From contig WGOB01000026.1 of NCBI GenBank assembly GCA_016124255.1, positions 1 through 59,208 on the forward strand: 59,208 nucleotides of DNA. The letters run 5' to 3'. The translations under genes were made by a program, and so were the position numbers. The DNA is from Alphaproteobacteria bacterium. Its GTDB lineage: Bacteria > Pseudomonadota > Alphaproteobacteria > Caulobacterales > Aquidulcibacteraceae. Below the pieces are notes generated by a model. The model was not told the origin of the DNA. It was given only the letters and a program-made list of their open reading frames with translations, and ran no database searches. Positions 2,143-57,875 of the stretch are shown one piece after another; the first letter of the stretch is position 1; every line of letters begins with the position of its first letter.

Positions 2143-3750
2143 TCAGACTCTTCGCCAGTTGAAGTCGCGGATGATCACACGGGCTGCGTTGTGGCCCGGC
2201 GCGCCGGTGACGCCCCCGCCTGGATGCGTGCCCGCGCCGCACTGATAGAGCCCGCGGATCGGCGTGCGGTGATCGGCCCACCCCAGCACCGGACGCGCAG
2301 AGAACAGCTGATCGAGCGACAACGCGCCGTGCATGATGTCGCCGCCCATGAGCCCGAACGTGCGCTCAAGATCGAGCGGCGTCAGCGCCTGGCGCGCGAT
2401 CACCGATTGCTTGAACCCCGGCGCGTACGCATCGACCGCATCGATCATCAGGTCCGCAACCTCGTCTCTGCACTCATCCCACGAGCGCCCGTCGGAGAGG
2501 GTCGGCGCAACATGCTGGCAGAAAAGGCTCGCCACGTGCTGTCCCGCCGGCGCCAGGGTGTCGTCGAGCGTCGACGGGATCAGCATCTCCACGATCGGCG
2601 CACGCGACCATCCGCGGGCGCGCGCATCGTGATACGCGCGGTCCATGTAGGCGAGAGACGGCGCGATGATCACGCCCGCCGTGAGATGATCGCCCGGCTC
2701 GGGTTTCGCCGAAAAGCGCGGGAGCGCCGAGAGCGCCACGTTCATGCGGAACGTGCCGGAGCCGACCTTGTAGCGGCGGATGCGGTCCTTGAAATCGGCG
2801 GGAAGCCGCTCCGGCTCCACCAGATGCTCGAACAACAGCTTCGGGTTCAGGTTCGAGACGATCGCGCGCCCGCGCACCACCTTGCCGTCGAGCGTGGCGA
2901 CCGCCGCGGCGCGGCCTTGGTCGAGGATCACTTCGCCGACGCCCACTTCAGTGTAGATCGTCACGCCGCGCGCGCGGCATTCCGCGGCCATCGCCTGCGT
3001 GATCGCGCCCATGCCCCCGATCGCGTGGCCCCAGAGCCCGCGCTTGCCGTTCACCTCGCCGAACACGTGATGCAGCAGCACATAGGCCGAGCCCGCCGAG
3101 TAGGGGCTCGCATAATTCCCGACGATGGAATCGAACCCGAACACCGCCTTGATCGGGTCGCTCTCGAACCAGTCGTCCAGCCAGTCGCCTGCAGATTTGG
3201 TGAAGAGATCGAGCAGGTCGCGCCGCGCGACGGTGTCCAGGCCGCTCACCTTGAACAGCGCGCCAAGCCCCGCGAACGCCTCCTCCAGCGTGTGCACTGC
3301 GCCCCGCTCGACGACGTTCGGCGGCGCCTTCAGCACCATCGCGCGCAGCACGTCCACGATCGCCGTCAGCCGCGCGTCATACGCCTCAAGCCGCGCCGCG
3401 TCGCGCGGCGAAAACCGCGCGACATCGCGCGCCGTAACGCCGGGCGCGACGCTCAAACTGTCGCCGTCCGGCAGCGGCAGAAAGTTCGACATCCGCCGCT
3501 CGACGATGCGCAGCCCGTGCGCATGGAGATGGAGGTCTGCGATGATCTTCGGGTTGAGCAGCGACACCGTGTAGGACGCAACGGAATTGCGGAAGCCCGG
3601 ATGGAATTCCTCGGTCACCGCCGCGCCGCCGACCACGCGCCGCTTCTCCAGCACGCACACTTTCAGCCCCGCGCGCGCCAGATAGGCGGCGCACACAAGG
3701 CCGTTGTGGCCGGCGCCGATGATGATGACGTCGTATTGTGCGGCGGACAT
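2143..3750 (-). CDS. Phytoene-desaturase-family FAD oxidoreductase (PYROXD2-like)
   Basis: A 535-residue flavoprotein. It opens with a Rossmann FAD-binding motif (DVIIIGAGHNGLVCAAYLA, about residues 7-25) followed by a basic strand end, VLEKRRVVGG. The C-terminus has the second FAD motif (GLYQCGAGTHPGGGVTGAPGHNAARV), typical of the phytoene dehydrogenase/PYROXD2 group. No other carotenoid gene is nearby, so carotenoid desaturation is not implied. Bacterial PYROXD2-like proteins are mostly of unknown substrate. It converges on the upstream + strand lipoprotein gene with a 38-base gap. Confidence 0.8.
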   Translation of the reverse strand: MSAAQYDVIIIGAGHNGLVCAAYLARAGLKVCVLEKRRVVGGAAVTEEFHPGFRNSVASYTVSLLNPKIIADLHLHAHGLRIVERRMSNFLPLPDGDSLSVAPGVTARDVARFSPRDAARLEAYDARLTAIVDVLRAMVLKAPPNVVERGAVHTLEEAFAGLGALFKVSGLDTVARRDLLDLFTKSAGDWLDDWFESDPIKAVFGFDSIVGNYASPYSAGSAYVLLHHVFGEVNGKRGLWGHAIGGMGAITQAMAAECRARGVTIYTEVGVGEVILDQGRAAAVATLDGKVVRGRAIVSNLNPKLLFEHLVEPERLPADFKDRIRRYKVGSGTFRMNVALSALPRFSAKPEPGDHLTAGVIIAPSLAYMDRAYHDARARGWSRAPIVEMLIPSTLDDTLAPAGQHVASLFCQHVAPTLSDGRSWDECRDEVADLMIDAVDAYAPGFKQSVIARQALTPLDLERTFGLMGGDIMHGALSLDQLFSARPVLGWADHRTPIRGLYQCGAGTHPGGGVTGAPGHNAARVIIRDFNWRRV

Positions 3751-20513: not shown

Positions 20514-21221
20514 ATGCACAGGAAAATTTGGTTCAGCCTTGTTGCAGGCGCGGTCGCGCTCGCCGCCTGCGCGACCTCGCCGCTGCCGGCAGAACCCGCG
20601 CCGCCCGCGGCGGTCGCCCCCGTCGCCACCGAGGCCACGGCCGGAACCTACCGGCTCGATAAAGCCCACACCACGATCCTCTTCCGCGTCGATCACCTCG
20701 GCATCTCGCGGTACACGGCCCGCTTTCTCGTGATGGACGCGACGCTTGAACTCGATCCCGCCAATCCGGCGGACGCGGCGCTTGTCGCCACCGTCGATGC
20801 GCGCTCGATCGAGACCGACTATCCCGATCCCGAGACGCTCGATTTCAACGCCGCGCTGCGCGGCGCCATCTGGCTCGATGCGGACGCGCATCCCGAGATG
20901 CGCTTCGTCTCCACCCACATCGAGATGACCGGCCCCGCCACGGCGCGCATCCACGGCGATTTCACCATGCGCGGCGTCACCCGGCCGCTCATGCTGGAAG
21001 CGACATTCAACGGCGGCTATGCCGGCCAAGCCTATGACCGCAACGCCCGGATCGGATTCTCCGCCCACGGAACGCTGATGCGCTCCGCCTACGGCATGGA
21101 TGTCGGCATCCCCCCGCCGGGCTCCACGATGGGCGTGGGCGACGCCGTCGAGATCATCATCGAAACCGAATTCACCGGCCCCGCCTGGGCCGGGGAGGCT
21201 ACGCCTTCACCGCCGTCTTGA
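20514..21221 (+). CDS. YceI-family lipoprotein
   Basis: About 235 residues. The lipoprotein signal ends in LAACAT. The mature domain is YceI: GTYRLDKAHTTILFRVDHLG, ISRYTARFLVMDATL, PEMRFVSTHIEM, GDFTMRGVTRPLMLEA and IGFSAHGTLMRSAYG. The lipocalin-like barrel binds long isoprenoids or quinones in the periplasm. A GAGGAGGA site precedes ATG 20514; the frame is open further upstream but the signal fixes the start. The last codons run through one copy of a 30-bp repeat (21169-21198) and end inside the RusA/AHJR cassette, so the present C-terminus may have been created by that insertion. Confidence 0.85.
   Translation: MHRKIWFSLVAGAVALAACATSPLPAEPAPPAAVAPVATEATAGTYRLDKAHTTILFRVDHLGISRYTARFLVMDATLELDPANPADAALVATVDARSIETDYPDPETLDFNAALRGAIWLDADAHPEMRFVSTHIEMTGPATARIHGDFTMRGVTRPLMLEATFNGGYAGQAYDRNARIGFSAHGTLMRSAYGMDVGIPPPGSTMGVGDAVEIIIETEFTGPAWAGEATPSPPS
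21169..21198. repeat. 30-bp direct repeat, left copy
   Basis: Identical over 30 bases to 22308-22337. It contains a 7-bp hairpin (CCGGCCC, loop CGCCT, GGGCCGG). This copy lies in the 3' end of the yceI gene and abuts the stop codon of the AHJR-nuclease gene. Confidence 0.85.
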
Positions 21222-21861
21222 AGAGGCCAGTCGCTAGGCAATAGACGAAACTCGCGGCGCCGGGTTCTCGCGCGTGCGCGATGTCGCCGTGGGCGAGCGA
21301 ATTGCGTTGAGATGAAATCTCGCGCAATCGCTTTCCCTCATCCTGGTCAATGCGTCCATCGGCAACCAGCGATTCTATCAGCTGAGTTGGCGTCATTGGT
21401 CGCTTCGATCCGTTCGCGGGCCCGGATGCTCTCGCGACGGCCTCAAGAGCCGCCCACGCCATAAGCAGCGCGGCGTCCTCGTGGCCTGAGTCGATAAGGG
21501 CGCCGGTGCTCTGAAGGAATGCGTGCAAACGTTCGGGGTCGACATCGGCGGCGTCCAAGGAATCAGCCGCAAACTCGTCTGTGAACACCGGGCGGAAAAT
21601 CCAGGGGCCCTGTCCTGTAAATCGCGAAGCGATGTCTTGGAGCGATTCCCCGGTCCGAGCTGATCTACGCGACTTGACTTCGATAACCACCTTTTCCGTC
21701 TCCCCCAACGCCAGAGCGTCGGGAAGATAATCGCCTAGAAACGCTGGAACGAGCTGCCTCGGGGGGTGTTCGATAAACTGGAACCCCCGGGCCTCGTAGT
21801 GGTCTCGCAGGAGGCTGAGAACGTCCCTCTCGAGTGTTGCTGAACCGTCCATGATCCTCAT
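21199..21861 (-). CDS. PD-(D/E)XK nuclease-like protein (REase_AHJR-like)
   Basis: 220 residues. The first ~75 hold a restriction-endonuclease-fold core: YLPDALALGETEKVVIEVKSR supplies the Asp and the E-x-K of the PD-(D/E)XK motif and resembles archaeal Holliday-junction-resolvase-like REases. The C-terminal half is helical (EDAALLMAWAALEAVARAS, RDIxxQRN-like EISSQRNSLAHGD), resembling the HEPN/MAE-28990-like helical extensions seen with such domains. Start at 21861 overlaps the RusA stop by four bases (ATGA), so the two are coupled. Likely DNA-acting; target unknown. Recently acquired by composition and flanking repeats. Confidence 0.6.
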   Translation of the reverse strand: MRIMDGSATLERDVLSLLRDHYEARGFQFIEHPPRQLVPAFLGDYLPDALALGETEKVVIEVKSRRSARTGESLQDIASRFTGQGPWIFRPVFTDEFAADSLDAADVDPERLHAFLQSTGALIDSGHEDAALLMAWAALEAVARASGPANGSKRPMTPTQLIESLVADGRIDQDEGKRLREISSQRNSLAHGDIAHAREPGAASFVYCLATGLFKTAVKA

Positions 21862-22271
21862 GACCCTAAAGCGTTCAAATCGTCATGCACCCGAATGAAT
21901 ACAACGGGAGGCTCAGTTTCGATAGCAGCAATGAGCGTCATCGAGGGATTGTCGAATTGCACGGCGCGTCCGCGCGGGAAACGGTGGATGAGAAGGCGGT
22001 CAATCTGTCGGTCGTCGACGTATAAAACGCCCTTTAGGGCGTCCAGGATGGGTTTAGCGATGTTGTCGAGGTCGCCGACGGGATTTGGGTTTGAAAAGTA
22101 GAACACCGATACGGCGAGGCTGGCGGTCGTGCAGAAGTAGGCCTCGGGCTGAGTGGCTCGGGCCGCGCGCGCTACAAGTTCCTTCCATGAGTCCCGCGAT
22201 GGAGTCGATGCGGCGTGTGATACTGGCACCCCAGCAACAAAGAACTCGACTGGGAGCGCGATCTCTTCCAT
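21858..22271 (-). CDS. RusA-family Holliday junction resolvase-like endonuclease
   Basis: 137 residues, the usual RusA size. The RusA signature is plain: NPVGDLDNIAKPILDALKGV followed by YVDDRQIDRL, which carries the acidic metal-binding residues (D, D, D) of the active site. FFVAGVPVSH at the N-terminus matches the first strand. Classical RusA is a prophage enzyme that cuts four-way DNA junctions. Here it is not in a prophage but in a two-gene unit with an AHJR-like nuclease. Confidence 0.75.
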   Translation of the reverse strand: MEEIALPVEFFVAGVPVSHAASTPSRDSWKELVARAARATQPEAYFCTTASLAVSVFYFSNPNPVGDLDNIAKPILDALKGVLYVDDRQIDRLLIHRFPRGRAVQFDNPSMTLIAAIETEPPVVFIRVHDDLNALGS

Positions 22272-22307
22272 TCGATCGTAACCTAGCCTACAGCGCGATC
22301 AGGTAGC

Positions 22308-22337
22308 AATTCACCGGCCCCGCCTGGGCCGGGGAGG
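22308..22337. repeat. 30-bp direct repeat, right copy
   Basis: Second copy of the repeat at 21169-21198, with the same internal hairpin. It lies upstream of the RusA start on the far side of the cassette, 36 bases beyond the RusA ATG. Confidence 0.85.
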
Positions 22338-22401
22338 GGGCTGCGGGCGCGGATTGGCGTCAGCGAATTCGCCCTGCTGCGCGCTGGCCTAGACTGGCGC
22401 G

Positions 22402-22932
22402 ATGCATGTCGTCGCCCATCCCTATTCGCCCGCGCAGATTGCGCGAGCGCTGTCGCGCGCTAAGCGTGCGACTTTGGATTGGGCGGCCGTGCTTTCGATC
22501 CTCGCGACGATGGTTGTCGGCGGCGCTGATGCGCGGCCGACGATCGTCGCCGAGCTCCGCCGCCTTGGGCGCACCGTGCGCGCGCTGCTCCTGCTCGCCG
22601 CGCTCCGCCGGCTGCGTCCCCGCCCGCGCCGCGCCTGCCGCGCCTCCGCCGCGCCGCCCGGCGCGCGGGTGCGCCTTCACCCGCGTGGTTCGCTGCTGCG
22701 TCTCGCCATGCGAACCGCGTTCACCCGCGCCGGCTTCGCATCGCGCGATCCGTCCACGCTTGTCGCGGCGATCCTGTCCGCGCTGGCCGCGCGCAAACGC
22801 GCGATCGCGCTGCTTGTCAAACGCCTCTCGCGCGGCCTGGCCCTTGGCCGCCTGGTGCTGACGCGCCCGCCCGCTCTCGTCCATCACACGGCCGCGCCGC
22901 CCGCGCCCGTCTGCAGCGCCGACACCTCGTAA
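22402..22932 (+). CDS. Hypothetical protein, arginine-rich with hydrophobic segments
   Basis: 176 residues. Codon third positions are strongly G/C in this frame, as in the neighbouring genes, which supports coding. The product is basic, with two hydrophobic stretches (LDWAAVLSILATMVVGG and RALLLLAALRRL) and an Arg/Pro-rich centre. I recognise no family. Overlapping frames on both strands are less convincing. The start has no clear ribosome site. Confidence 0.5.
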   Translation: MHVVAHPYSPAQIARALSRAKRATLDWAAVLSILATMVVGGADARPTIVAELRRLGRTVRALLLLAALRRLRPRPRRACRASAAPPGARVRLHPRGSLLRLAMRTAFTRAGFASRDPSTLVAAILSALAARKRAIALLVKRLSRGLALGRLVLTRPPALVHHTAAPPAPVCSADTS

Positions 22933-57482: not shown

Positions 57483-57508
57483 CGGGCTTCAGCGCGGCAG
57501 CCTTCGCT
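57483..57508. repeat. 26-bp direct repeat, left copy
   Basis: Identical to 57850-57875. It starts CGGGCTTCAGCGCGGCAG. It lies just beyond the shifted-frame stop of the GIY-YIG gene. Confidence 0.8.
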
Positions 57509-57849: not shown

Positions 57850-57875
57850 CGGGCTTCAGCGCGGCAGCCTTCGCT
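57850..57875. repeat. 26-bp direct repeat, right copy
   Basis: Second copy of the repeat at 57483-57508. Together they enclose the GIY-YIG gene in a 0.4-kb interval next to tRNA-Tyr. Confidence 0.8.

Follow-up and report, generated by a model that had tools for sequence, protein, structure and literature searches.

The window analyzed here, i.e., the whole 59,208-nucleotide stretch of alphaproteobacterial DNA, contains a short two-gene insert lodged at the 3′ end of a yceI gene and bounded by two identical copies of a 30-bp sequence, the features of this locus (in window coordinates) being as follows:

20514 to 21221, plus strand: host gene yceI, the last 7 codons (ATPSPPS) and stop codon of which are supplied by the insert
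21169 to 21198, plus strand: left 30-bp repeat, the last native-looking in-frame part of yceI (EFTGPAWAGE), its motif shared with the yceI ends of relatives L004 and L006
21199 to 21861, minus strand: gene 2, a 220-aa fusion of Hjc-like PD-(D/E)XK and HEPN domains (Pfam, alignment, structure model, fold matches)
21858 to 22271, minus strand: gene 1, a 137-aa RusA-family endonuclease with a 4-bp ATGA overlap with gene 2 (Pfam, structure model, fold, conserved residues)
22272 to 22307, minus strand: 36-bp leader of the RusA gene, adjoining the right repeat (sequence, promoter scan)
22308 to 22337, plus strand: right 30-bp repeat (exact repeat search)

The repeats are exact and lie 1139 bp apart from start to start, as the preliminary description of this DNA had it (a perfect 30-bp pair around a unit of ~1.14 kb), and they form the longest exact direct repeat of the window, the next one being 26 bp long. 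The possibility that the 30-bp sequence is an abundant genomic repeat was rejected upon counting it throughout the genome (97 contigs), where only two matches were found at E <= 0.001, both being the flanking pair itself. The 26-bp repeat (57483–57508 and 57850–57875) surrounds a short stretch in which, judged by eye alone, a small ORF of GIY-YIG type may lie, possibly a further small nuclease gene. Enclosed by the 30-bp copies are 1109 bp (21199–22307) with a GC content of 59.2% vs. 68.1% for the window, a value as low being found in just one of 1162 equal-length stretches (step of 50), which may itself overlap the insert. The two minus-strand genes are the only ones between the repeats, and the lower GC content, the ATGA overlap and the lack of an integrase or transposase that had been described earlier all hold.

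It had likewise been read correctly that the left repeat is in frame with yceI: the reading frame passes through it to a stop codon at 21219–21221, within the insert, and the stop codon of gene 2 abuts the same repeat from the other side. Since the repeat consists mostly of yceI coding sequence and corresponds to the yceI end as seen in relatives (in the two that were read, L004 and L006, the last codons of the gene encode EFTGPAW and a few further residues), yceI sequence appears to have been duplicated upon insertion. When continued from the right repeat copy, the yceI frame meets no stop for 184 codons, which means that the original yceI end is not restorable from the sequence of this genome, and a single staggered cut may be too simple a picture of the insertion. 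As to the comparison with yceI ends of relatives that the preliminary description had called for, the gene pair is absent from this locus in the relatives examined, and no tidy one-copy ancestral site was recovered from this genome. The gene order in the window is a DUF5655 gene, yceI, the insert, a further ORF and a pseudouridine synthase gene; in relative G001, a convergent gene, by eye a pseudouridine synthase, ends two bases past the yceI stop. The DUF5655 gene and yceI align between the window and G001 over 1.5 kb at 77% identity, and the pseudouridine synthase gene aligns over short stretches only. The further ORF (176 aa, 22402–22932, lying past the right repeat and ahead of the pseudouridine synthase gene) has no Pfam match and is absent from the yceI–pseudouridine synthase gap of G001; the genome has a paralogue of 38% identity at a distant site (G000:C67), and G001 has a relative of the ORF at a different place.

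As for regulatory signals, scanning the 36-bp leader region returned no sigma-70 consensus promoter, and four terminator-like sites were found within 21000–22500 (1.1 expected), none of them inside the repeats. The hairpin noted earlier in each repeat does have a 7-bp stem, but the left copy is unexceptional, being matched by 33 of 200 shuffled sequences (z of −0.86; for the right copy, 4 of 200 fold equally well, z of −2.01), and the corresponding yceI ends of two relatives fold differently. The idea of the hairpin serving as an att site or a RusA target was set aside on these grounds, and the hairpin looks incidental.

The assignment of both genes to the families named earlier (RusA and AHJR-like) stands, but the second domain of the AHJR protein, a HEPN domain, had been missed. 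Gene 1 matches Pfam RusA at 1.1e-9, and its structure model (pLDDT of 91.6) yielded seven fold matches at E <= 0.001, all of which are E. coli RusA entries, with TM-scores of 0.58–0.75 over these seven; a profile search against PDB sequences returned no match, whereas the fold search did find RusA. The acidic/lysine pattern is shared as well, even though the identity to E. coli RusA in the structural alignment is just 13–16% and gene 1, unlike that protein, sits in an operon with a HEPN protein. Residues D67, D69, N70, K73, D77 and D87 are invariant in all 20 aligned RusA copies (the alignment leaves out L030, L031, L041, L046, L047, L049, L052 and L125, among which L030 and L052 are broken), and D67/D69/K73/D77/D87 are those we take to be the counterparts of the E. 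coli RusA catalytic residues, of which PDB titles name D70 only. The Pfam match, the RusA fold and the conserved Asp/Lys pattern place gene 1 in the RusA family, and, judging from its sequence, it looks like a structure-specific endonuclease whose active-site pattern is intact.

Gene 2 matches the Pfam AHJR-like family at 4.3e-24, and its model (pLDDT of 90.6, pTM of 0.62) consists of an alpha/beta domain and a helical one, corresponding to an Hjc-like PD-(D/E)XK domain (residues ~1–103) and a HEPN domain (~105–220) with the motif R186-N-S-L-A-H191. For the former, the best fold matches have middling Z values (VRR, 7.7; Hjc, 6.9), and a profile search against PDB sequences found Hjc (2eo0) at E of 6.9e-4. 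For the latter, the fold matches are Csm6 HEPN (Z of 11.6) and HEPN toxins (Z of 10.8), which should be read with the aligner's own caution that for helical bundles, HEPN being one, a Z under ~13 can reflect a common arrangement; as the fold score alone falls below that value, the HEPN assignment rests on the motif, the profile and the fold jointly. The profile match of the second part to HepT is level with that to an unrelated ribosomal protein (E of 0.13), and Pfam HepT is slightly over its cut-off in L044 and L048, and under it in the window copy. Foldseek returned no match for gene 2 at E <= 0.001, although Hjc and HEPN families were listed near the top; matches to R2 retrotransposon endonucleases in the same search were read as a shared REase fold only.

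The two domains differ in how well their motifs are kept among the 21 aligned homologues (L031, L041, L046, L047, L049, L053 and L125 are left out of this alignment). HEPN residues R186, N187, H191 and G192 (R-N-x3-H-G) are invariant in 21/21, whereas the Hjc-like motif is incomplete in 11 of the 21 (D48 in 21, E61 in 17, K63 in only 10), so the HEPN motif is the better preserved one. The Pfam match and the Hjc-like fold make the first domain AHJR-like, and the window copy retains the full set of residues (P47-D48...E61-V-K63), while the D...E-x-K triad is not conserved across the family; in many of its members, to go by the residues retained, the domain may act as a DNA sensor. The R-x4-6-H motif within a helical bundle is that of HEPN proteins, and cutting of RNA is predicted for this domain.

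A search of other genomes for RusA/AHJR pairs, as proposed at the outset, found that the two genes keep strict company: the RusA gene precedes the fusion at 28/28 full-length loci (the window, L016–L022, L029–L031, L041 and L051 counted once, L042, L044–L048, L049 and L040 counted once, L052–L058, L060 and L125). Loci L023–L025, L032–L037, L061 and L095–L099, being fragments or matches mainly to the C-terminal half, were not counted, L043 was set aside as truncated by a contig end, and L040, L041, L049 and L051 closely resemble L018, the site of which they share. In two of the 28, RusA is broken (frameshifted in L030, interrupted in L052; a sequencing error is possible) with gene 2 open in both. 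The reading frames overlap by 1 or 4 bp in 25 of 26 rows, those of L017 lying 1 bp apart, these counts being indicative only, as the script chose the start codon nearest an overlap. Pairwise distances of RusA and gene 2 correlate across 21 loci (Mantel r of 0.78, reached in 0 of 5000 permutations), host phylogeny being left in this figure.

The pair recurs sporadically across alphaproteobacteria. At E <= 0.001, a gene 2 match is carried by 3 of the 61 genomes searched among relatives (own genome included), with no match in the other three genomes of the genus and none in 58 of the 60 relatives in all. Searches at the same threshold, again with the own genome included, found it in 9/385 genomes across the class (three matches partial) and in 11/398 across the phylum (five partial), and the genus of genome G340, in which the flanking DNA is 90–94% identical to a Methylobacterium bullatum record, has it in 12 of 59 genomes, one being a fragment (E <= 0.001). 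Genome G828 carries two different RusA–HEPN modules (L053 and L125), one behind cobO and one elsewhere. One RusA–fusion pair lies in another class (L031, genome G487); 48 genomes of that class yielded five matches, all C-terminal fragments, in a search that was insensitive, given that G487 was matched by alignment A1 and missed by alignment A4. Gene 2 is present in 6 of 72,556 plasmid records. A phage origin of the module was considered and rejected, as two queries against 50,697 phage records returned no match, nor did three scans of IMG/VR, which reach only relatives sharing the short motifs chosen.

The sites occupied in the genus of G340 make it possible to compare “filled” and “empty” states. 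In 4 of its 59 genomes, the module lies directly behind cobO (a gene read by eye), and it is absent behind cobO in all five non-carriers compared, whose cobO is 92–96% identical; in four of these five, the downstream gene follows cobO. The left junction coincides with the stop codon of cobO; to the right, some 48 bp at the beginning of the downstream gene are unaligned, so the start of that gene has also been altered. At a second slot, two genomes have the module behind an EamA-type transporter gene (likewise read by eye), where five relatives have an unaligned stretch of 50–74 bp instead and a sixth (L110) has ~900 bp (about 2345–3240) with a TacA1 antitoxin gene and a GNAT gene; the last codons of the transporter differ between carriers and relatives, as is the case for yceI. 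No long direct repeat surrounds the module at either slot. The cobO slot is used by two module groups that are 50–54% identical in gene 2 (e.g., ~53% for L018 vs. L052), which could reflect either several insertions at the same place or an early insertion followed by losses, and the second slot is used by modules 67% identical. An apparent case of the unit relocating was also considered: L046 and L047, with 96% identity in gene 2, have DNA in common that begins 60 bp ahead of RusA and ends 68 bp beyond gene 2; L046 then has an IS5, past which the right neighbourhood shared with L047 resumes. As only the left flanks differ, this points to an exchange on the left side, and the pair was rejected as proof of the unit having moved.

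Inspecting the borders of the other pairs did not bear out the expectation that they, too, would carry repeats. For 19 loci, the left and right flanks (at most 2.5 kb per side, less where a contig ended) were compared and the strongest direct repeat between them was scored, with 342 cross-locus flank pairs as the null, the maximum of which was 18; the window scores 30, L038 scores 104 over 119 bp, and the remaining 17 loci do not exceed 15. A version with shorter flanks agrees, and seven further loci scored by a simpler version stay at or below 12. The L038 repeat lies within a ~250-bp duplication (79% identity) covering the upstream region and the first 40 codons of a neighbouring gene. Long flanking repeats are thus seen at 2 of 26 loci, and those two differ in both length and sequence; being so rare and unrelated, they are best regarded as occasional by-products of insertion, not as the mark of a dedicated recombinase, and illegitimate or short-homology insertion fits the two duplications better. 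The unit does look mobile, as was first suggested, in that it is inserted and absent at the same sites in relatives, but direct repeats are not what marks it: it has no transposase or integrase of its own, and neither a constant target duplication nor att-like repeats (2/26) accompany it.

As for the surroundings of the module, chromosomal copies mostly lie between housekeeping genes (by eye). At three of the six plasmid copies (L046–L048, on Rhizobium plasmids), neighbours match defence models (AbiE, PD-Lambda-2, retron III-A PRTase and GajA) or Mrr-type enzymes, as found by scanning ten hand-chosen proteins with PADLOC, without control loci. Within 10 kb of the L048 plasmid lie a retron III-A PRTase, PD-Lambda-2 B and C, the RusA–HEPN pair, an Mrr-type enzyme and a GajA-like TOPRIM protein. 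Beside L045 lies a HATPase protein that matches a type II REase weakly, with no clear defence system there and none recognized by annotation or eye beside L044 and L049. No model of PADLOC-DB 2.0.0 (2023) matches either protein of the pair (four proteins from two loci).

In the MntA-HepT operon (type VII toxin-antitoxin), the toxin is the second gene. Gene 2 is similar to such HEPN toxins in its HEPN fold, its R-x4-H motif and its position as the second gene of an overlapping two-gene operon, whereas the partner there is a minimal nucleotidyltransferase and here it is RusA, with HEPN fused to an Hjc-like domain, which places the pair outside type VII. Archaeal Hjc shares its fold with the N-terminal domain of gene 2, along with the P47-D48...E61-V-K63 residues in the window copy, but the motif is incomplete in 11/21 members of the gene 2 family, and the domain is fused to HEPN here; the “AHJR” of the family name stands for archaeal Holliday junction resolvases (PMC1189080). 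Fusions of HEPN-M proteins to an archaeal Holliday-junction-resolvase-like REase are described by Anantharaman et al. 2013 (PMC3710099) and are probably of the same kind as gene 2, so the fusion as such, in print since 2013, is not new. The word “RusA” does not occur in the main text of that paper, nor in those of DefensePredictor (PMC13092281) and a BREX survey (PMC12839542), and no mention of a RusA–HEPN pairing was found in the main texts of the open-access literature searched.

Taken together, the HEPN motif, the RusA core, the constant pairing, the sporadic spread, the empty slots and the defence neighbours suggest that the insert is a toxin/defence module of two genes that moves horizontally, a RusA–HEPN variant of the HEPN toxin/abortive-infection modules, a reading to which we would give an even chance. 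Of the two roles proposed in the preliminary description, it is the defence one that has gained support, from the HEPN domain and the defence genes beside three plasmid copies, although the function itself is a matter of prediction. In a quiet cell, the HEPN RNase would be held inactive, probably inside a complex of RusA and gene 2; an invader that makes branched or recombining DNA would have that DNA engaged by RusA and the Hjc-like domain; the HEPN dimer would then be released or activated, and the ensuing RNA cleavage would stop growth as an abortive-infection response, by which the module might act against phages. As the module lacks a mobility gene, it would spread as a passenger, by illegitimate or short-homology recombination at the ends of genes and in the gaps between them, an insertion sometimes duplicating target DNA (presumably the 30 bp in the window). 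Against inhibition by RusA, its being broken in 2 of 28 loci with gene 2 open fits poorly with a strictly required inhibitor, and a RusA that is active does not readily suggest itself as an antitoxin.

The same difficulty weighs upon the alternative of a plain toxin-antitoxin pair, in which gene 2 is the HEPN RNase toxin and RusA an enzyme recruited to be its antitoxin, the spread being due to maintenance and not to phage sensing. An antitoxin-first overlapping operon of two small genes, the resemblance of the gene 2 HEPN fold to HEPN toxins, and the sporadic occurrence of the module, with one of its slots holding a TacA1/GNAT pair in a relative, are all what one would expect of such a pair; the RusA catalytic pattern kept in 20/20 copies is unexpected for a mere antitoxin, though, and with RusA broken in L030 and L052 while gene 2 is open, and defence genes beside three plasmid copies, we consider this alternative rather unlikely.

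The selfish cassette proposed in the preliminary description, whereby RusA and the AHJR nuclease would cut the target, drive their own insertion and leave target duplications behind, could draw upon the extended duplications that flank the module in the window and at L038 and upon the reuse of the cobO slot by groups 50–54% identical and of the second slot by modules 67% identical. It has, however, been left with a slim chance by the 24 of 26 loci that lack long repeats, the two unrelated duplications differing in length and sequence, a repeat search that found no inverted repeats pairing one end of the insert with the other, and a DNase motif that is incomplete in 11/21 homologues next to a HEPN motif retained in 21/21, for which a cassette of this kind has no role. 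A DNA-repair accessory, with RusA resolving junctions, the fusion regulating or assisting recombination and HEPN acting as a tether, would account for both RusA and the N-terminal domain of gene 2 having Holliday-junction resolvase folds, but is equally improbable in view of the sporadic presence (2 of 60 relatives), the invariant HEPN motif and the defence genes adjoining three plasmid copies.

An even bolder variant, in which branched DNA triggers abortive infection, RusA and the Hjc-like domain sensing invaders and switching on the HEPN RNase, and in which the same junction nucleases now and then also catalyse integration of the module at the ends of genes, would account for target duplications that vary and is, in our estimation, very improbable. 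That the repeat arose in assembly or by chance and that the insert is a mis-join, as 97 contigs and a right flank that does not restore the yceI end might hint, is highly improbable given a repeat score far over the null, the preserved frame and motif of yceI, the presence of modules of this kind between host genes in numerous other genomes, and the DUF5655 gene and yceI on one side with the pseudouridine synthase gene on the other, as in G001.

Returning to the two-gene toxin/defence module, such a reading, if right, would add a defence/toxin family that ties a Holliday-junction resolvase to a HEPN RNase, and would suggest that recombination intermediates can be used by cells as a signal of infection. 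It would also be a module of two genes and no mobility genes, the insertions of which can be compared with the same sites, empty, in relatives.
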